Origin: SAR92 clade bacterium
GTDB lineage: Bacteria; Pseudomonadota; Gammaproteobacteria; Pseudomonadales; Porticoccaceae
Direction of reading: 5' to 3'
Length of the DNA stretch: 64,000 nt
NCBI GenBank assembly: GCA_004211905.1
Contig: SHBP01000001.1
Span: 248,001 to 312,000, forward strand
Part shown: in pieces, positions 4,848 through 64,000 of the stretch
Layout of the letters: each line of letters opens with the position of its first letter
Position numbering within the stretch: position 1 is the stretch's first letter
Made by a program: the position numbers and the translations under genes
The notes under the pieces: model-generated
Told to the model about the DNA's origin: nothing
What the model saw: the letters and a program-made list of their open reading frames with translations, nothing else
Database searches by the model: none

Positions 4848-5159
4848 ATGGATGATATGACATCTGAACAACGCTTTTATAGCATTATTCAGCAGATACC
4901 ATCGGGTTGCGTAGCGACCTATGGGCAGGTTGCTGAATTAGCAGGATTACCTGGCTGTGCAAGGATGGTTGGTCGAACATTAAGCCAATTGCCAAGTGGC
5001 AGCCAGCTACCCTGGCATAGGGTAATTGCAGCATCAGGCAAGATTAGTTTGCCAGAAGATAGCGAGTCTTTTTTAAAGCAGAAAGAAAAATTATTAAGTG
5101 ACGGCATTGAGATTAACCACAATCGCGTTAATCTCAACCACTATCAGTGGCAACCGTGA
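4848..5159 (+). CDS. atl: Alkyltransferase-like protein (ATL, MGMT family without catalytic Cys)
   Basis: The 103-residue protein is the winged-helix DNA-binding domain of O6-alkylguanine-DNA alkyltransferases: VATYGQVAELAG is the helix that inserts into DNA, followed by the arginine-finger region GCARMVGRTL. The active-site motif PCHR is replaced by PWHR, so it cannot take up an alkyl group. This is the hallmark of ATL proteins such as E. coli YbaZ, which bind O6-alkylguanine and channel it into nucleotide excision repair. It lies alone between divergent fxsA and the ampG-like gene; a second in-frame ATG at 4857 is a possible start. Confidence 0.9.
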   Translation: MDDMTSEQRFYSIIQQIPSGCVATYGQVAELAGLPGCARMVGRTLSQLPSGSQLPWHRVIAASGKISLPEDSESFLKQKEKLLSDGIEINHNRVNLNHYQWQP

Positions 5160-5207
5160 TTTAATAGACCGTACTAAATTTGGCTTTTTCGGACAATGAG
5201 GTCATTA

Positions 5208-6458
5208 ATGAATTCTCTCAGTATCAGACGAGCAATGCTTAATCGGCGCATGTTGATTTGCATTTTTACGGGATTCGCCTCCGGGATGCCTCTGTATGTC
5301 CTAATTTCGCTGGTACCCGCATGGTTAAGGACTGAGGGTGTAGGACTCAAAGAAATTGGGGCGTTCGCTCTCATAGGCCTCCCTTATATATGGAAATTTG
5401 TCTGGTCACCACTACTCGATCGCTACTCTTTATCGCTATTTACTTACAAACCAGGGTTGCGCCGCAGTTGGATGCTTTCTACACAGGTATTGTTACTGGT
5501 TACCATCGGTACCCTCGGCTTTCTCGACCCGCTAACCCAACTCTGGCCTATCGCTTGGTTGTGCTTGGGTATCGCCTTCCTAAGCGCAACTCAAGACATA
5601 GTTTTGGATGCCTATCGCCGGCAAATACTCCCCGATCAGGAATTAGGCCTAGGCAATTCGATCCACGTCAATGCTTACAGAGTAGGCGGATTAATTCCAG
5701 GATCTCTGTCCTTGGTACTTTCAGACTTCCTGCCCTGGGAAACCGTCTTTCTAATTACCGCTGCCTTTGTCCTGGCGGGTATAGCGTTAACACTGTCAAT
5801 TAAAGAGCCTCCTCGCGCCCATCAACAGCCGGCTACCTTACAAGCAGCGATAGTGGAGCCCTTTAACGATTTTTTTTCTCGACAAGGGATTCAACAGGCG
5901 CTGCTTATTCTGGCGTTTATGTTGTTGTACAAATTGGGGGACAGTATGGCAACCGCCCTGGCTACACCCTTCTATTTGGACATGGGCTTTAGTAAAACTG
6001 AAATAGGTATAGTGGCAAAACAAGCGGCGCTATGGCCGATGATTATCGGCGGTATTGCCGGCGGGATTCTAATGCTCAAAATTGGTATAAACCGAGCTCT
6101 ATGGTTATTTGGCTTTGTGCAGATTATTTCTATCTTAGGTTTTGCTGTTCTAGCCCGTGTTGGTGGAGGATTGTGGCTTCTCGGGCTGGTTATCGGCTTT
6201 GAGTACCTAGGGGTTGGCCTTGGAACAGCAGCCTTTGTCGCCTTTATTGCTCGCACAACAAATCCAGCATTTGCCGCTACTCAATTTGCCTTATTTACTG
6301 CATTAACTGCAGTGCCTCGCACTGTTGCGAGTGCCGCCACCGGAATCATCGTTGAAGGAGTTGGATGGGAGAATTTCTTTTATATGTGTACCCTGATTGC
6401 TATTCCTGGAATGCTTTTACTGTTTAAGGTAGCGCCATGGAATGAGGAAACATATTAA
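5208..6458 (+). CDS. ampG: AmpG-like muropeptide permease (MFS)
   Basis: This is a polytopic membrane protein of about 416 residues with roughly 12 hydrophobic helices. The start region (FASGMPLYVL), the PYIWKFVWSPLLDRY segment near residue 60 and the FLSATQDIVLDAYRR segment near residue 130 are typical of AmpG permeases, which import GlcNAc-anhydro-muropeptides during peptidoglycan recycling. Its 3' end overlaps by 4 bases the convergent ampD, which acts on the imported substrates, and this supports the call. I choose the ATG at 5208 because GAGG lies six bases upstream; the ATG at 5196 is an alternative. It is shorter than E. coli AmpG (14 helices), closer to the Pseudomonas AmpP type. Confidence 0.85.
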   Translation: MNSLSIRRAMLNRRMLICIFTGFASGMPLYVLISLVPAWLRTEGVGLKEIGAFALIGLPYIWKFVWSPLLDRYSLSLFTYKPGLRRSWMLSTQVLLLVTIGTLGFLDPLTQLWPIAWLCLGIAFLSATQDIVLDAYRRQILPDQELGLGNSIHVNAYRVGGLIPGSLSLVLSDFLPWETVFLITAAFVLAGIALTLSIKEPPRAHQQPATLQAAIVEPFNDFFSRQGIQQALLILAFMLLYKLGDSMATALATPFYLDMGFSKTEIGIVAKQAALWPMIIGGIAGGILMLKIGINRALWLFGFVQIISILGFAVLARVGGGLWLLGLVIGFEYLGVGLGTAAFVAFIARTTNPAFAATQFALFTALTAVPRTVASAATGIIVEGVGWENFFYMCTLIAIPGMLLLFKVAPWNEETY

Positions 6459-57079: not shown

Positions 57080-57418
57080 ATGAATGACTTAAGTTGGCAA
57101 GAGTTTGAGCGCGTGGAATTGCGAGTCGGAACGGTTGTAACCGCCGAAATATTTAAGGAGGCTCGTAAACCGGCGATAAAGTTGACCATTGATTTTGGAG
57201 ATGAGATCGGTACGAGAAAATCTTCAGCACAAATAACCGATCACTACACCCCTGAAGCATTAATTGGTAAACAAATTTCTGCGGTGGTTAATTTCCCTAA
57301 AAAACAAATTGGGCCCATTATGTCTGAGTGCTTAGTTACGGGGTTTATTCAAGACGACGGTAGCGTCGTTTTAGCCGTGCCAGACAAACAAGTGATTAAT
57401 GGCTGTCGCCTAGCTTAG
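57080..57418 (+). CDS. csaA: tRNA-binding OB-fold protein CsaA
   Basis: The 112-residue protein is a single tRNA_bind (OB-fold) domain with the pattern ERVELRVGTVVTAEIFKEAR, YTPEALIGKQISAVVNFP and a C-terminus VLAVPDKQVINGCRLA. CsaA is a dimeric tRNA-binding protein with chaperone activity in Bacillus. It begins just downstream of the divergent SDR gene and precedes the symporter gene by 102 bases on the same strand. A decayed second copy lies at 59346-59663. Confidence 0.92.
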   Translation: MNDLSWQEFERVELRVGTVVTAEIFKEARKPAIKLTIDFGDEIGTRKSSAQITDHYTPEALIGKQISAVVNFPKKQIGPIMSECLVTGFIQDDGSVVLAVPDKQVINGCRLA

Positions 57419-57520
57419 ATAAACTCAACATCAACTTAGTAGACTCTGTGCTTTAACGCTGACCTCAACCCGTGACTAACTTTTGGTTCCTATTCTGGTT
57501 GAACACTATATGATAAAGAT

Positions 57521-59152
57521 ATGAATACTTTCCTAATTTCAGTGGTTATTAGTATCCTCGTATATTTAGGTGTCGGCTGGTATGCAGGGCGCAAAGTCAA
57601 AAGTTTAGATGATTATTATGTAGCCGGCCGAAATGCACCTACTTTACTTATAGTGGGTACCCTTGTTGCCAGTTTTTTAAGCACCAATGCGTTTCTTGGA
57701 GAAGTGGGCATGTCCTATCAAGGCCATGGTCCATTAATTATTATTATGACTGGTGTTAATAGTCTGGGCTATATAATAGGGGCGTTATTTTTCGGGCGTT
57801 ATTTACGTCGTAGTCGCGCTCTTACTGTTCCTGAATTCTTTGGGCAACGCTTTCAGAGTCGACGCTTGCAAGCATTTGCCGGACTTACCATTGTCATCGG
57901 TTTGACCTGTTACCTTCTTGCCGTCACCTGGGGTGTTTCTCTAATTGTCACTGAGGTAAGTGATATTTCATATACCACTTCCATCATCATGGTATGGCTG
58001 GGATATACAGCATTCACTCTCTACTCTGGATCAAAAGGCGTCATACTTACAGACACCATTATGTTCGTGCTCTTCTCCACTGTAACGCTAATTACTTTGT
58101 ATTACATTGTTCAAGCAGGCGGAGGATGGGACTCAAGTTTAGAACAACTAGTAACTTATCAAGAAAAACCAGAGATAATTTCGTGGCATGGCGTTATCGG
58201 TCCCGACAGTACTTGGCAAACACCTGCAGAGGGATTAATTTGGGCCCTTATCTTAGGCGTAGCATGGGGTGTGGTGGTTGCTGTCAGTCCTTGGCAATCA
58301 AGCCGATATCTGATGGCAAAAAATGAACATGTAGTCATCCGATCTGCCTGCGGTGCAGCAATGGCAGTTCTCCTTTTTTACCTCGTAATTACTTTCGGCG
58401 CGGCCGCAGTCAATCTTATTAACCCTAACATCGACCCACCTGAAAGCGCCTTAATTTGGGTTGCGATAAACATTATGCCCACGGTTTTAGGCGCTATGTT
58501 AGTGTGCGGTATTCTTGCGGCCGGCCTTTCTTCCGCCTCCACTTTTCTATCTCTTGTTGGATTTAGTGCAAGTAATGATATTTTTCAGCACTCTAACGAC
58601 CCAAAGAAGCAGTTGCGCTCTACACGATACACTATGATCGTCATGGGACTAATCGTTGTCGTTCTTTGTCTAGTATTACCAACCAATATTTTTTGGATAA
58701 CCTACTTTGCCGGACCAGTATTTGCATCATCGTGGGGAGTGGTTGCTTTTATGAGTATTTGGAGTAGGCGTATTACTGAAGCAGGCGCATTTTGGGGAAT
58801 GGTAAGTGGATTCATGGGTAATGTTATTGCCAATTTGTTAAAACTTTTTGCAGGTGTAGACCTTCCTGTTTATATGGATCCTATCCTTCTTGGAGGTGCT
58901 ATCAGTTTAATTACCGTACTGCTGGTTTCCGCCTCTGGAAGCGTGAGCCTTGAATCACAAAACTTTCGAGAACAATTACACAAAGCTCCAGCGAACAATC
59001 AGGATTCCCAGGAAATAGCACGGACACTGATCTGGTCAAAGATGATGATCATCACCGGAGTGGTAGTTGTAGCGCTATTAATTAACTTTTATGCAAAACC
59101 ATATGAAACCGCAATAACAAATTATGAGTTACGTCTTGGAGATCAATCATGA
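57521..59152 (+). CDS. Sodium:solute symporter (SSS family), substrate unknown
   Basis: The 543-residue protein has 13 or more helices. The SSS start LGVGWYAGRKVKSLDDYYVAG (split here: GRKVKSLDDYYVAGR), SFLSTNAFLGEVGMS, and GILAAGLSSASTFLSLVGF near residue 330 (Na2 site serines) are typical. Relatives carry proline, pantothenate, acetate and other small acids; the sequence alone does not decide. Its stop overlaps by ATGA the start of a 35-residue membrane peptide, which suggests coupling. A 23-residue remnant of a second copy's C-terminus is found at 61252. Confidence 0.92.
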   Translation: MNTFLISVVISILVYLGVGWYAGRKVKSLDDYYVAGRNAPTLLIVGTLVASFLSTNAFLGEVGMSYQGHGPLIIIMTGVNSLGYIIGALFFGRYLRRSRALTVPEFFGQRFQSRRLQAFAGLTIVIGLTCYLLAVTWGVSLIVTEVSDISYTTSIIMVWLGYTAFTLYSGSKGVILTDTIMFVLFSTVTLITLYYIVQAGGGWDSSLEQLVTYQEKPEIISWHGVIGPDSTWQTPAEGLIWALILGVAWGVVVAVSPWQSSRYLMAKNEHVVIRSACGAAMAVLLFYLVITFGAAAVNLINPNIDPPESALIWVAINIMPTVLGAMLVCGILAAGLSSASTFLSLVGFSASNDIFQHSNDPKKQLRSTRYTMIVMGLIVVVLCLVLPTNIFWITYFAGPVFASSWGVVAFMSIWSRRITEAGAFWGMVSGFMGNVIANLLKLFAGVDLPVYMDPILLGGAISLITVLLVSASGSVSLESQNFREQLHKAPANNQDSQEIARTLIWSKMMIITGVVVVALLINFYAKPYETAITNYELRLGDQS

Positions 59153-59256
59153 GCGGAGAAATGTTACTTGCTATAGGTTACGGGTCAATGATGATACTAG
59201 GAGGTTTACTCGTGTGGTGGGACCTCTATCAGCCCAATGATGATTCTTCTGATTGA
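59149..59256 (+). CDS. Small single-helix protein translationally coupled to the symporter
   Basis: This short frame encodes 35 residues: MSGEMLLAIGYGSMM followed by ILGGLLVWWDLYQPN and an acidic end. It is one transmembrane helix with a Trp-Trp edge. The ATG overlaps the symporter stop (ATGA). A paralogue, 34 residues with the same MSGEMLL start and WW, lies at 61320-61424. I recall similar peptides being called symporter small accessory proteins. The repeat of the same arrangement in two places makes coding very likely. Confidence 0.82.
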   Translation: MSGEMLLAIGYGSMMILGGLLVWWDLYQPNDDSSD

Positions 59257-59345
59257 TTAAATCACGTCAGGCCTTTTGCTAAAAACTCTATCCTCTACTA
59301 AAAAAATCTAAACCCTTCTGATCGGACTAAATGTACCAATGCTGT

Positions 59346-59663
59346 TGGTTATTCGACCGATTAGTTGCGTGTTCGAACCATATTATCAGCTGAAATTTTC
59401 AAAGAAGCGCGAACCCCAGCAATTAAGTTGAATATTCATTTCGGAGATGACATTGGCATCAGGAAAGCATCTGTACAAATCACCGATCATTACACCCCTG
59501 AAGGATTAATTGGAAAGCAAATCTCAGCCATAGTAAATTTCCCAAAAAGACAAATTGGCCAGATGATGTCCGAATGCTTGGTAATAGGTTTTATTCGGAA
59601 TGATGGTAGCGTTATACTCGAGTGCCCGATAAAGCGACAAAAAATGGGGCTCGATTGGCATAA
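59346..59663 (+). pseudogene. csaA: Decayed second copy of csaA
   Basis: Between 59365 and 59620 the frame reads LRVRTILSAEIFKEAR and onwards, with 61 of 77 aligned residues identical (hand count) to CsaA at 57080. The N-terminus is broken: an in-frame TAG at 59362 precedes it, and the matching W-F-D-R-L codons (59346-59363) are in another frame. Near 59620 one base is missing; in the shifted frame VPDKATKNGARLA and a stop at 59663 follow, matching the CsaA end. Because of the shift, the main frame runs on into matB. Confidence 0.85.
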
Positions 59664-59709
59664 GTTGCCAATTATTATTTGTTTAAACTTGTATAGGGAA
59701 GTGTTAGAG

Positions 59710-61230
59710 ATGAAACAAAACGCTAATTTATTTGCTCATTTCCAATCCCATTTTCCTGATGATTCCTCAACATGCTTGCTAATCACGGATAACGGCCAGA
59801 CAATAACCTATGGTCAAGCTGATGAGGCGTCAGCGCAAATTGCAAATAGCCTTCTAGAATTGGGAGCCTCCCTAGGTGATCGAGTCACTGTGCAGGTTGA
59901 AAAATCAGTGGAAGCCCTTTACCTATATCTCGGATGTCTGCGCGCAGGTCTTGTCTATCACCCCCTTAATACTGCCTATACGGCATCTGAAATTGAGTAT
60001 TTTCTGACCAATGCAGAGCCCTCTATTATAATCTGTAAGAGCGAATTTCAGGATATTGTTAAATCTGTAACAGTTAACTGTAGCGTTAAGGCAATTCTGA
60101 CCCTTAATGCTGACGGGACTGGAACGCTGCTAGATTTAATTCAAGATGCCTGCACAACAGCGCAAACCGCCATGCGCTGCGGGACGGATATGGCCGCTTT
60201 ACTCTATTCCTCTGGCACAACTGGCCGACCAAAAGGGATTATGTTGAGCCATGACAATCTTCGTTCGAATGCTGAAATTTTGGTTGATTCCTGGGGATTT
60301 TCCTCCTCAGATCGCCTTCTCCATATGCTCCCAATTTATCACGTTCATGGCTTATTCGTCGGCATAAGCTGTGTATTGATGAGCGGCGCGAGCATGTCCT
60401 GGCATAAATCATATAACGATGACATTGCCGTGAATGCTATGCCCGAATGTACCGTTATGATGGGAGTCCCTACCTACTACACTCGCCTATTAAAGAATCA
60501 TAAATTCTCATCAGATTGTTGCCAAACAATGCGTCTGTTTATATCTGGTTCCGCACCACTACTATCAGAGACTTTTCACGAGTTCAAAGCACGTTGCGGC
60601 CATACTATTCTTGAGCGCTATGGAATGTCTGAAACTAATATGAATACATCCAATCCACTGGATGGCGAACGTAAACCAGGGACCGTGGGGCCTGCTTTGC
60701 CTGGGGTTTTAATAAAAATAGTTGATGATCAGGGTCAAGAGGTAATACTAGGTGATATCGGTAATTTGCAGGTCAAAGGCCCGAATGTATTCTCCGGATA
60801 TTGGAGAATGCCAGAAAAAACCAAGAAGGACTTCACTACGGACGGTTTCTTTAATACTGGCGACAAAGCTAGCATCGATGATAATGGTTATATATCAATT
60901 GTTGGGCGATCAAAGGATTTAATTATATGTGGTGGGCTGAATGTCTATCCAAAGGAAGTTGAGATGGTGATTGATGACATTTCAGAAATCAAAGAATCTG
61001 CAATTATTGGCGCTCCCGATGCAGACTTTGGTGAAGTTGTCGTTGCAATTATCGTTGTTGAGGATAGTTACTCTCTAGACAACAAATTCATAGAAAAGAA
61101 AGTCATCAATTACTGCAAAACCCAGCTCGCGAACTTTAAGATACCAAAGAGAGTAGATGTAGTTAATTCTCTTCCGCGAAATGCGATGGGCAAAGTGCAG
61201 AAAAATCTCTTAAGAGACAGATTGAAATGA
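59710..61230 (+). CDS. matB: Malonyl-CoA synthetase (MatB)
   Basis: MatB joins malonate (or methylmalonate) and CoA with ATP, giving malonyl-CoA and AMP. The 506-residue protein from the ATG at 59710 (GGAAG nearby) has the adenylate-forming P-loop YSSGTTGRPKGIMLSH, LPIYHVHGLFVG, the family signature MMGVPTYYTRLL and SGSAPLLSETFHEF, ILERYGMSETNMNTSNP, and GRSKDLIICGGLNVYPKEVE with the C-terminal Lys in PRNAMGKVQKNLLR. The frame is open upstream to 59365 through the decayed csaA, so a readthrough fusion of 621 residues is formally possible. It is followed by a symporter remnant. Confidence 0.92.
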   Translation: MKQNANLFAHFQSHFPDDSSTCLLITDNGQTITYGQADEASAQIANSLLELGASLGDRVTVQVEKSVEALYLYLGCLRAGLVYHPLNTAYTASEIEYFLTNAEPSIIICKSEFQDIVKSVTVNCSVKAILTLNADGTGTLLDLIQDACTTAQTAMRCGTDMAALLYSSGTTGRPKGIMLSHDNLRSNAEILVDSWGFSSSDRLLHMLPIYHVHGLFVGISCVLMSGASMSWHKSYNDDIAVNAMPECTVMMGVPTYYTRLLKNHKFSSDCCQTMRLFISGSAPLLSETFHEFKARCGHTILERYGMSETNMNTSNPLDGERKPGTVGPALPGVLIKIVDDQGQEVILGDIGNLQVKGPNVFSGYWRMPEKTKKDFTTDGFFNTGDKASIDDNGYISIVGRSKDLIICGGLNVYPKEVEMVIDDISEIKESAIIGAPDADFGEVVVAIIVVEDSYSLDNKFIEKKVINYCKTQLANFKIPKRVDVVNSLPRNAMGKVQKNLLRDRLK

Positions 61231-61251
61231 CAAGCACTATCAGGACATACG

Positions 61252-61323
61252 ATGATGAACTTTTATGCAACGCCTTATGAGATTGCTTTAACACAACAAG
61301 GCCCTCTGAAGTTTGGACCATGA
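61252..61323 (+). pseudogene. C-terminal remnant of a second SSS symporter
   Basis: The 23-codon frame MMNFYATPYEIALTQQGPL... aligns with the end of the symporter at 57521 (NFYAKPYETAITNYELRLG). It has the same ATGA overlap with a following small single-helix gene. The rest of the symporter is missing; the sequence before the MM codons is not similar to the intact gene, so the break lies near 61258. Confidence 0.75.
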
Positions 61324-61424
61324 GCGGGGAAATGCTTTTATCTATCAGTTATGGACTAGTCATGGTGGCTGGCGGTGCGTTCATCTGGTGGTTAATAAAA
61401 AGATACTTCGAAGAGGCTGAGTGA
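61320..61424 (+). CDS. Second small single-helix protein (symporter accessory paralogue)
   Basis: A 34-residue frame, MSGEMLLSISYGLVMV then AGGAFIWWLIKRYFEEAE, matches the peptide at 59149 in its start, helix and WW. Unlike the symporter it followed, it is intact. Overlaps the remnant stop by ATGA. Whether it still works, perhaps with the first symporter, is open. Confidence 0.75.
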   Translation: MSGEMLLSISYGLVMVAGGAFIWWLIKRYFEEAE

Positions 61425-61469
61425 TGACCAAAACAAATAATCTTCGCCCTACGTTTATTGGAGTTACGC

Positions 61470-62663
61470 ATGATGAATAACCCTTTAGAACAAATTGATG
61501 ATCTGTTAGAGCACCAAGATTGGAGCTTTCCCGTCCCAATTTCTTATGGCCCTGGTCGATTGTCTGAAATTAGCTCACACTGCAAAACGATGGGCCTTCA
61601 AAATCCTCTTATTGTGACAGATAAAGGTAGCGCTCATTTACCGTTTATTAAGCTACTTCAAGACTTTTTGTCTCTCGCGAACATCCCGTCAGCCTTGTTT
61701 GATGAGGTTTCACCTAATCCACTAGAGAAAGACATTCTCGCTGGCCGAGAGAAATTCCATAACGGCAAGCATGATGCGGTTATTGCTATTGGCGGTGGAA
61801 GCGCTATGGATGGAGGGAAGTGCATTTGTCTGACAGCGAATAATGATTACAGCGTTTGGGATTTTGAGTTTGAGTTGCCAGTACCTATGATTCAGCATGA
61901 TCAACCCTTTCCAACATTAATTACGATTCCAACAACAGCGGGTACAGGCGCTGAGACTGAGAGCACCGCTATGGTGACGGATGTTAATAAATGTATGAAA
62001 TTTTGTGTCTGGCATCCTGACCTAAAACCATCTCTCGTACTTCTCGATCCCGAACTCACATTAGATTTGCCACCAACACTAACCGCATGGACAGGGGCAG
62101 ATGCGATGGTTCACGCCATTGAGGCGTTCCTTGTACCTGGGTTTCATCCACTTTGTGATGGGGCTGCGCTAGAAGGTCTGCGACTTGTCTCAAAATGGCT
62201 ACCCACAGCCGTTCATGAACCAAGCAATTTAGCTGCTAGAGGTGGCATGCTTGTAGGATCTTGCCTTTCTGGAATCGCTTTCCTAAAAGGTCTAGGTATG
62301 GTCCATGCTATATCTCATATGGTCGGGGCCGAATTTGACACTCAACATGGCCTTACAAATGCCATTATTCTCCCTGTTGTGCTCCGCTTTAATCTCCCAG
62401 GATTAGAGTCTCAGGTTGCGAGGATGGCGAAGGTGATGAACTTGAAAGATGGCTCAATTGATAGCTTTATTGCTGAAATCGAGAACATGCTAGATGATAT
62501 TAATATCCCTAAATCACTTAAAGAGATTGATGTGCCACCTGAATGCGCTCAAAGAATTGCAGAAAAAGCAATTTTAGACAGCGCTGCCGGCACTAACCCA
62601 CGTCAGGCAACTGTTGAAGAAATTAGAGTCTTAGTCGAAACTGCGATTGAAAGATCTCGCTAA
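61470..62663 (+). CDS. Iron-containing alcohol dehydrogenase (group III)
   Basis: The 397-residue protein has GGGSAMDGGK (NAD site, about 95-105), PTTAGTGAETESTAMV, and the metal ligands in GADAMVHAIEAF and GMVHAISHMVGAEFDTQHG. It oxidises or reduces a primary alcohol/aldehyde with NAD(H). GGAG lies within ten bases of the ATG at 61470; ATG 61473 is an alternative. The aldehyde dehydrogenase gene starts 17 bases further, so the pair would turn an alcohol into an acid. Substrate unknown. Confidence 0.93.
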   Translation: MMNNPLEQIDDLLEHQDWSFPVPISYGPGRLSEISSHCKTMGLQNPLIVTDKGSAHLPFIKLLQDFLSLANIPSALFDEVSPNPLEKDILAGREKFHNGKHDAVIAIGGGSAMDGGKCICLTANNDYSVWDFEFELPVPMIQHDQPFPTLITIPTTAGTGAETESTAMVTDVNKCMKFCVWHPDLKPSLVLLDPELTLDLPPTLTAWTGADAMVHAIEAFLVPGFHPLCDGAALEGLRLVSKWLPTAVHEPSNLAARGGMLVGSCLSGIAFLKGLGMVHAISHMVGAEFDTQHGLTNAIILPVVLRFNLPGLESQVARMAKVMNLKDGSIDSFIAEIENMLDDINIPKSLKEIDVPPECAQRIAEKAILDSAAGTNPRQATVEEIRVLVETAIERSR

Positions 62664-62680
62664 ACCAGAGGTTATTATCC

Positions 62681-64000
62681 ATGGAAAATCTTAGCAAATT
62701 TTATATTGACGGTCGTTGGCAAGATCCAATCTCAACAGGAACTATGCCAGTATTAAACCCTGCGACTGAGATGCAGGAAGGTACAGTGGCCCTAGGTAAT
62801 AATGAAGACGTCAATCGAGCGGTTACCGCCGCCAAAAAAGCTTTTGAAAGTTTTTCAAAAACCACCAAGCAAGAGCGCCTGGATCTATTACATCGTTTAA
62901 AAACTGCTACACAAAGACGATTTGAAGATCTGGCACAGGCTATGTGCGCAGAGATGGGTGCACCAATTACTATGGCTCGTGATGCTCAGGCCGATGCAGC
63001 AATAGGTCATCTTGATGGTTTCCTAGAAGCACTAGAGGGTTTTAACGAGAGTGAAACTCTGTCTAGTGGTGATGAACTAATCCATGAACCTATTGGAGTT
63101 TGTGGTCTTATCACCCCTTGGAATTGGCCGATGAATCAAATTGCTCTCAAGGTCATTCCAGCGCTCGCAACAGGCTGCACCTGTATCCTCAAACCCTCAG
63201 AGCATACGCCTATTTCTGCAATGATTTATGCAGAGATTATTGACGAGGCCGGCTTTCCAGCAGGTGTTTTTAATCTTGTAAATGGAGACGGTCCGACAGT
63301 TGGTGCTGCTCTCTCTAAACATCCAGATATTCAGATGATGTCATTCACAGGGTCTACTCGGGCCGGTAAATCAATTACGCGAGATGCGTCAGAAACGATT
63401 AAGCGTGTCACTTTAGAACTTGGCGGTAAGTCACCTAATCTTGTCTTTGCTGACTGTGACCTAGAGACTCAAGTCACAGCCTCTGTCGATGAATGTATGT
63501 ACAACACAGGCCAGTCCTGTGACGCTCCGACACGCTTGCTCGTAGAACGAAGCTGCTATGGTGAAGTGCTCCAGATTGCAAAAAAAGCAGCGATGGCAAC
63601 TACGGTTGGAGATCCCAAAAAAGAAGGTGATCACATAGGGCCTCTATTTGATCAAATTCAATTTGATCGTGTGCAAGCAATGATAAGTGTAGGTATCGAA
63701 GAAGGAGCGACTGTCTTGGCTGGAGGACTAGGCAAACCAAATGGTATGGATTTAGGTTGGTTTGTTAAGCCTACTATTTTTTCTGATGTATCAAATGATA
63801 TGAGAATTGCTCAAGAGGAGATCTTTGGTCCTGTTCTGGTAATCATTCCCTTTGAAAACGAGGATGAGGCCATTGCCATTGCAAATGATACCCCCTATGG
63901 TCTTGCCGCTTACCTTCAGACTGGAGATCCAGTCCGTGCAAGGCGTGTGGCCGCTCGATTACGTGCGGGAGCAATCCACATTAATGGTGGTGGGTTTAAT
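62681..64000 (+). CDS. Aldehyde dehydrogenase (NAD(P)+), C-terminus beyond window
   Basis: The 440 residues seen start MENLSKFYIDGRWQDP and contain ITPWNWPMNQIALKVIPALATG (split here: TPWNWPMNQIALK), FTGSTRAGKSI, the general-base Glu in TLELGGKSPN and the catalytic Cys in NTGQSCDAPTRLLVE, followed by EEIFGPVLVIIPF and NDTPYGLAAYLQ. The last 35-40 residues lie outside. It follows the iron alcohol dehydrogenase and probably oxidises its aldehyde product. Confidence 0.95.
   Translation, partial: MENLSKFYIDGRWQDPISTGTMPVLNPATEMQEGTVALGNNEDVNRAVTAAKKAFESFSKTTKQERLDLLHRLKTATQRRFEDLAQAMCAEMGAPITMARDAQADAAIGHLDGFLEALEGFNESETLSSGDELIHEPIGVCGLITPWNWPMNQIALKVIPALATGCTCILKPSEHTPISAMIYAEIIDEAGFPAGVFNLVNGDGPTVGAALSKHPDIQMMSFTGSTRAGKSITRDASETIKRVTLELGGKSPNLVFADCDLETQVTASVDECMYNTGQSCDAPTRLLVERSCYGEVLQIAKKAAMATTVGDPKKEGDHIGPLFDQIQFDRVQAMISVGIEEGATVLAGGLGKPNGMDLGWFVKPTIFSDVSNDMRIAQEEIFGPVLVIIPFENEDEAIAIANDTPYGLAAYLQTGDPVRARRVAARLRAGAIHINGGGFN

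Follow-up and report, generated by a model that had tools for sequence, protein, structure and literature searches.

The window analyzed here is a stretch of 64,000 nucleotides of DNA from a SAR92 clade bacterium. Towards its end lies a run of forward-strand genes that includes an SSS symporter, a very short membrane-peptide gene overlapping it (pep1), a remnant of a second symporter, and a second copy of the small gene (pep2). The features of this locus are as follows.

57080..57418, + strand: intact csaA-like tRNA-binding protein gene (NF007493, 178.1 bits, cut-off 160; 82% to the copy at related locus L058)
57521..59152, + strand: SSS symporter of 543 amino acids, with 14 predicted membrane helices and without TM15 (PF00474; AlphaFold pLDDT 85.4)
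59138..59141, + strand: GGAG, Shine-Dalgarno (SD)-like, within the final codons of the symporter (-6.4 kcal/mol with the anti-SD; 12 of 1000 shuffles equal or better)
59149..59152, + strand: ATGA start/stop overlap of symporter and pep1, read from the sequence
59149..59256, + strand: pep1, putative detached TM15 of the symporter, 35 amino acids, tail without K or R (profile 31.1 bits, E 2e-8)
59350..59663, + strand: csaA pseudogene, frame broken near both ends (74% to the intact copy in amino acids; tblastn match at 59365-59637; DNA alignment)
59710..61230, + strand: malonyl-CoA synthase gene, matB type (NF005702, 739.7 bits, cut-off 558)
61242-61245, + strand: AGGA preceding the remnant frame, read from the sequence
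61252..61323, + strand: symporter remnant, a 23-codon frame that opens at ATGATG (50% in amino acids over 22 codons to the tail of the intact symporter)
61320..61323, + strand: ATGA start/stop overlap of remnant and pep2, read from the sequence
61320..61424, + strand: pep2, second putative TM15 peptide, 34 amino acids, basic tail kept (KR) (profile 45.3 bits, E 7.5e-13)
61473..62663, + strand: iron-containing alcohol dehydrogenase gene (PF25137/PF00465; 77% to the L058 copy)
62681..64000, + strand: aldehyde dehydrogenase gene that continues past the end of the window (85% to the copy at locus L016)

The SSF domain (PF00474) covers residues 32-430 of the symporter (110.5 bits against a cut-off of 22.8), and its family suggests a putative role in Na+-coupled solute uptake. 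A sequence-only reading of this DNA had drawn attention to a 35-residue membrane peptide that occurs twice. The repetition was confirmed, as both peptides begin MSGEMLL and contain one hydrophobic stretch and a WW pair; the length is correct for pep1 and one residue too long for pep2. The overlap by ATGA with an upstream stop, also proposed in that reading, is seen at pep1 with the full symporter and at pep2 with the remnant. The second symporter is reduced to 23 codons beside an intact small frame, as had been described, and its residues NFYATPYEIAL... are the counterpart of NFYAKPYETAI... at the end of the intact symporter. A long open frame (59365-61230) joins the csaA pseudogene to matB, and this was taken as coincidence. 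Among the members of the symporter's clade whose flanks were examined, a close copy of the matB-type gene at 59710-61230 is found only in the window and in L058/G024.

Relation of the peptides to fused symporter tails

The genome containing the window also has, on a different contig, a second symporter of this type, which is 51% identical and runs about 50 residues past the matched part. In a first search covering 12 other loci, 11 extend similarly (including this second symporter), and one, L004 in genome G024, is split. The fused extensions share a layout of -GE-, one hydrophobic stretch, and a basic tail, and the same layout is found in the peptide. A scan of public genomes identified 345 relatives, 80 of which were examined; the 3' end is readable in 79, and L084, which runs off its contig, was left out of all counts. 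The same helix is fused to the symporter in 71 of these 79 loci, each with an extra C-terminal hydrophobic segment that is mostly preceded by xGE, and is split off in the other eight (L023, L027, L035, L037, L038, L043, L046, and L058). The eight split symporters are 538-555 amino acids long and continue only briefly past the last PY. L058 is apparently the same contig, of 35,985 bases, as that of G024.

A profile built solely from the C-terminal extensions of the 71 fused relatives matches all 10 split peptides (those of the eight relatives, pep1, and pep2) at 31-47 bits. In controls, the best of 2000 shuffled peptides reached 11.8 bits, the best slice of the symporter 10.9 bits, and the best other small open reading frame of the window 8.1 bits (716 frames scanned, both peptides among them). 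Since the profile detects every split peptide and the controls score far lower, the peptide and the C-terminal segment of the fused relatives are homologous. Judged by sequence homology, it is the symporter's own last helix (TM15) encoded separately, and not an unrelated partner. The earlier description of the peptide as symporter-coupled therefore holds in a stronger form, as the peptide would be a piece of the symporter itself. Conservation at related SSS loci, which that reading had named as a check, is seen in the eight separate peptides, three of them ATGA-linked (L058, L023, and L043). The WW pair is no feature of the family in an alignment from which L046 was omitted.

Comparisons between split peptides show an excess of pS over pN for L037-L038 (p 0.003), L027-L035 (p 0.001), and pep1-L058 (p 3e-6, silent sites saturated); these p values rest on rounded site counts and are rough, and of the three pairs only L037-L038 stays well below saturation. 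Sequence comparison thus points to purifying selection on the split peptides.

Recurrence of the split and its junctions

The history of the split was analyzed in a careful tree of 32 chosen rows of symporter cores with the tail removed. It requires at least four changes between the split and fused states, and a single origin appears in 0 of 200 bootstrap trees. A larger, quick tree of 77 rows (L062, L086, and L099 dropped; L047, with one internal stop, still included) also needs four changes, three of them forced by starred branches. Placing all split rows in one clade was rejected (p-AU 9e-98), as was grouping the five split rows of the clade that includes the window (p-AU 2e-5) or the window with L023 and L058 (p-AU 0.003); the grouping of the window with L058 was borderline (p-AU 0.039). 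Because at least four changes are needed and one split clade is rejected, fission of TM15 appears to recur in this symporter family, and perhaps re-fusion does too. One side of the 77-row tree, with 38 rows ranging from Verrucomicrobiota and Myxococcota to Gammaproteobacteria, is wholly fused, and the fused form is therefore the likely ancestral state under a root placed at the midpoint only. The clade of the window has split genes among which two fused groups are nested, six genes of SAR92 type and six of Luminiphilus type, a pattern that both repeated fission and re-fusion would fit. At the position where the split gene starts, fused genes have ATG in L029, L033, and L041 and TTG in L024 and L025, and this favours some re-fusion.

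The two nested fused groups and these start codons would also suit an opposite history, in which an unrelated single-span partner was recruited as an accessory peptide and the fused genes formed later by fusion. Carriers of LeuT fold with small partners have precedents in MAP17 and the two-subunit NSS importer. However, the wholly fused side of the larger tree, with the same reservation about its midpoint root, makes the fused form the likelier ancestor, and recruitment of an independent peptide seems very doubtful.

The split falls at the same place in the eight loci and in the window, and start and stop are never more than 8 bases apart among the 10 cases. The stop has an offset of +1, giving ATGA, at five sites (twice in the window, and in L058, L023, and L043), an offset of +8, giving ATGAGCGGTGA or ATGGGGGGTGA, at four (L027, L035, L037, and L038), and an offset of -5 at one, L046, where it precedes the start. 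The codons for M-S-G-E make a stop possible beside the start in both other frames, the one in the third frame requiring GGT for glycine. A change of one base in the upstream loop could therefore yield a neat two-gene overlap, and we infer that this is a route by which the overlaps may arise. All eight split public records are titled MAG, and the splits might be suspected of being sequencing or assembly frameshifts in metagenome-assembled genomes. However, independent assemblies share the junction, at the five ATGA sites and at the four with the +8 offset, and the small frame appears to be under purifying selection; an artefact of this kind is extremely improbable.

SD-like signals were compared at the starts of the split peptides and at the matching sites of fused genes. 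The mean strength is -5.3 kcal/mol at split starts against -3.3 kcal/mol at fused sites (10 versus 57, p 0.025), and the difference is also found when the comparison is limited to the 17 fused sites in the nearer half (p 0.046). The 57 fused rows were drawn from 71, with L034, L062, L076, L086, and L099 left out together with nine further rows in which the motif rule gave no site. Four of the 10 split sites (pep1, L058, L023, and L027) are better than 95% of their own shuffles; in the same shuffle comparison almost no signal is seen at the L043 start and none at that of pep2 (855 of 1000 shuffles equal or better). The SD signal at split starts is thus modest, and translational coupling by re-initiation at the overlap can be proposed by analogy. 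Programmed ribosomal frameshifting across the overlap would instead still make the fused product, and the peptide would never be a free protein. The closeness of start and stop in every case and the fused state of most relatives are in keeping with this, but two different overlap frames exist, the stop precedes the start in L046, and the frame of pep1 is open for just 7 codons ahead of its start (42 codons in all) and that of pep2 for 13 (47 in all). SD-like sites are, in addition, commoner at split starts than at fused ones. Taken with these observations, frameshifting is highly unlikely.

The second locus copy and peptides without a symporter

In G024/L058 the gene order is csaA, matB, symporter, peptide, alcohol dehydrogenase, and aldehyde dehydrogenase. 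The window has csaA, symporter, and pep1, followed by the broken csaA, matB, the symporter remnant, pep2, and the same two dehydrogenases, and comparison of the two orders indicates two copies of the locus in tandem. We infer that the tandem arose either as a duplication or when the copy of a relative recombined with this locus at csaA. The losses across 57080-64000 are complementary, with copy 1 lacking matB and copy 2 having a broken csaA and a deleted symporter. Silent differences between the two csaA copies of the window (pS 0.79) are close to those between the window and L058 genes (0.77), so that the two window copies are either old or foreign to each other. The broken copy has a pN/pS of 0.19, and its decay therefore looks recent; because of this, the intact 34-codon frame of pep2 is weak evidence for selection. 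Most likely, pep2 is a leftover, namely the TM15 gene of the second locus copy, from which the symporter has been deleted.

One other symporter-less copy was found, in G068, a genome of the same genus (contig 77, locus L106). Here csaA is joined to the last 60-odd residues of the symporter, everything between them having been lost, and the peptide is still there. What is left of the symporter stops early and no longer forms an ATGA junction with the peptide, whose own tail is frameshifted when compared with G024 by eye. In the comparison of G068 with G024, dN/dS is 0.41 for the peptide helix, lower for the dehydrogenase (0.12) and csaA (0.07), and higher for the dead symporter tail (0.63). Although the numbers are small, amino-acid change is greater in the peptide than in the dehydrogenase (p 0.02); constraint on the peptide may exist but is not significant (p 0.20). 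In G068 the peptide has outlasted its symporter, but apparently as a relic. The suggestion made from the sequence that the peptide has a function of its own is not supported, because this sister copy without a symporter is decaying. Searches with the peptide profile in 369 genomes of the class and 398 of the phylum (overlapping draws of limited reach, the window's own genome included) gave one outside match, within a 272-codon frame. A search of 50 genomes of the genus (E<=0.1) matched both window peptides, G024, and G068, along with three weak, partial matches in G068 contig 85, G020, and G028 (E 0.02-0.07).

The other suggestion made from the sequence was that the peptide can serve the remaining symporter, and pep2 may conceivably do so. 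Several observations could be taken to mean that selection has kept pep2 as the better TM15, serving the intact symporter in trans while pep1 degenerates. It resembles the family more than pep1 does, with the higher profile score (45.3 versus 31.1 bits) and with KR retained past the helix. At least one K or R is present in the tail in 75 of 76 rows, and pep1 is the sole exception, with none. This count includes 66 of the 71 fused rows (L047, L052, L062, L086, and L099 left out), and its segments were picked automatically, so that L054 and a few other rows are probably out of register. The pep2 frame is also intact and still ATGA-coupled to a mini-frame preceded by AGGA, and pS exceeds pN between pep2 and the L058 peptide (p 1e-6). 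However, the latter comparison includes the period before the symporter was lost, the neighbouring csaA pseudogene has a similarly low ratio, no SD signal is present at pep2, and the parallel orphan in G068 is decaying. On the branch of pep2 itself pS is 0.73-0.92, and since silent sites are saturated its dN/dS allows no conclusion. Action in trans is accordingly an unlikely reason for the persistence of pep2. A broader form of the idea is that TM15 is an exchangeable module in this family, repeatedly cut off and re-fused at one junction, with micro-subunits from second loci acting in trans and pep2, not pep1, completing the carrier of the window; this is quite improbable.

The symporter tail and pep2 might also have been spared only as a promoter or leader of the downstream alcohol dehydrogenase. 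In copy 2 of the window and in G068 alike, the deletion of the symporter spared its 3' tail and the peptide, which in both cases precede the same dehydrogenase. A promoter scan, however, found six sites against a shuffle mean of 6.3, one of them a 9-of-12 match at 61227-61256. This explanation is conceivable but rather unlikely.

Topology, known systems, and significance

Structural models place TM15 at the end of the carrier. The fused relative L024 (Porticoccaceae; from a 52-row alignment) is 68% identical to the window protein, and its AlphaFold model (mean pLDDT 87.9) has a last helix at 543-576 behind a short loop, with pLDDT of 92-97 over 541-570. Fifteen membrane helices are counted in this model and 14 in that of the window symporter, which ends in a helix at 496-538 (pLDDT 85.4). 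With the L024 model as the query, standing in for the window symporter, an SSS/LeuT-type fold was recognized among solved structures (Z 32.1 to SGLT2, with 2.9 A over 510 residues). Chains of human SGLT2 and SGLT1 (from MAP17 complexes), SiaT, NIS, and CHT1 match best, at Z 31-32. In L024 model numbering, the match covers residues 1-534 for at least one fifth of the solved structures listed, and it reaches 548-551 for a few from SGLT and DUR3 and 569 for one from NSS. TM15 is thus, in these models, an extra helix added to the 14-helix SGLT plan. The N terminus lies outside in the SSS family, and with 15 helices the tail is therefore predicted to be inside, consistent with the basic tails.

These results can be brought together in an explanation that we consider very probable as a whole: fission of TM15, coupled synthesis, non-covalent repacking, and pep2 as a leftover. 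Fission in the TM14-TM15 loop would have turned TM15 of a 15-helix SSS symporter into a gene of its own, a step backed by sequence evidence, namely the homology and position of the peptide, the recurrent splitting, and the purifying selection on split peptides. Ribosomes finishing the 14-helix symporter at ATGA would restart at once on the peptide, and the two products would therefore be made together. The peptide would insert with the N terminus facing outward and the basic tail facing inward, and would pack non-covalently on the C-terminal helices to give a 15-helix carrier as in the fused protein. Its role would probably be in stability or membrane assembly, as for MAP17 with SGLT2. Speaking against this mechanism, pep1 beside the intact symporter lacks K and R in its tail, a poor fit to an essential N-out/C-in helix.

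Other carriers of related fold also have small partners. SSS carriers with two-helix small subunits exist, such as the VC_2705 type (TIGR03648) with its DUF4212-type partner, where an SSS carrier and a small adjacent membrane protein are paired as in the window. The window symporter is no member of the TIGR03648 large-subunit family (95.6 bits against a cut-off of 320.75), and small subunits of the DUF4212 or MetS type are absent from the NCBIfam and Pfam matches of nine of the 10 split peptides at E<=1. In these two collections the matches of the peptides to known families were all at E 0.014 or worse, to unrelated models. NSS carriers have the LeuT fold, and the second subunit of MetP is small. 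MetP is described as a Na+-coupled NSS methionine importer encoded with a second subunit (PMC3219685). The pairing of a carrier with a second subunit is common to both systems, whereas MetP belongs to NSS and the window symporter to SSS.

Pfam contains a MAP17 family, and it is not among the Pfam matches of the peptides at E<=1. MAP17 is reported to rest with its single helix on TM13 of SGLT2 and to increase the surface expression of this carrier (PMC10803289, PMC10203128). Like the window pair, SGLT2-MAP17 (human SLC5A2) combines an SSS-fold carrier with a separate single-helix partner. MAP17, however, is no piece of a carrier, whereas the bacterial peptide shares its ancestry with the fused C terminus of relatives and its gene overlaps that of the carrier by ATGA. 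MAP17 is thus the nearest analogue of the peptide, the likeness being one of layout only. A GeneTack survey describes adjacent frames that are fused elsewhere, with start and stop no more than 10 nt apart and re-initiation (PMC3711429); this pattern corresponds to the layout in the window, and the word 'symporter' is absent from the main text of the survey. The annotation 'symporter small accessory protein' was found neither among the NCBIfam matches nor in the literature searched. That literature, which lay mostly outside subscription papers, contained no report of an SSS carrier whose last helix is split off, and in a review on prokaryotic SSS carriers (PMC7918813) the terms 'accessory', 'small protein', and 'subunit' do not occur in the main text.

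The neighbouring genes offer a hint of the substrate. In the 17-row clade that includes the window, the flanks examined contain the iron alcohol dehydrogenase in 14 rows and the aldehyde dehydrogenase in 14. Seven rows (L023, L027, L029, L030, L032, L033, and L035) also carry, close to the symporter, relatives (64% or more) of a dmdA-type DMSP demethylase, accompanied by alcohol and/or aldehyde dehydrogenases; the dmdA-type assignment was made for the HTCC2080 protein only (NF009133, 450.5 bits, cut-off 410). As a guess from this gene content, the symporter might take up DMSP or a related compound. In L023 the alcohol dehydrogenase match (5006-5994) is divided into three pieces, of which two overlap but lie in different frames, and the gene may therefore be broken in that record. 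An order-wide search with the symporter (E<=1e-180) found it in three of 390 genomes, the window's own included; L103 from this search, whose DmdA is identical to that of HTCC2080, was set aside.

The locus points to one source of the 30-40-codon genes that are easily missed, namely a carrier's own helix set free. The survival of such a small gene after a deletion need not mean that it has a function of its own. With natural fused and split versions in close relatives, the effect of covalent linkage of the terminal helix on assembly of the LeuT fold becomes approachable, and the family bears on whether fission can give rise to MAP17-like partners.
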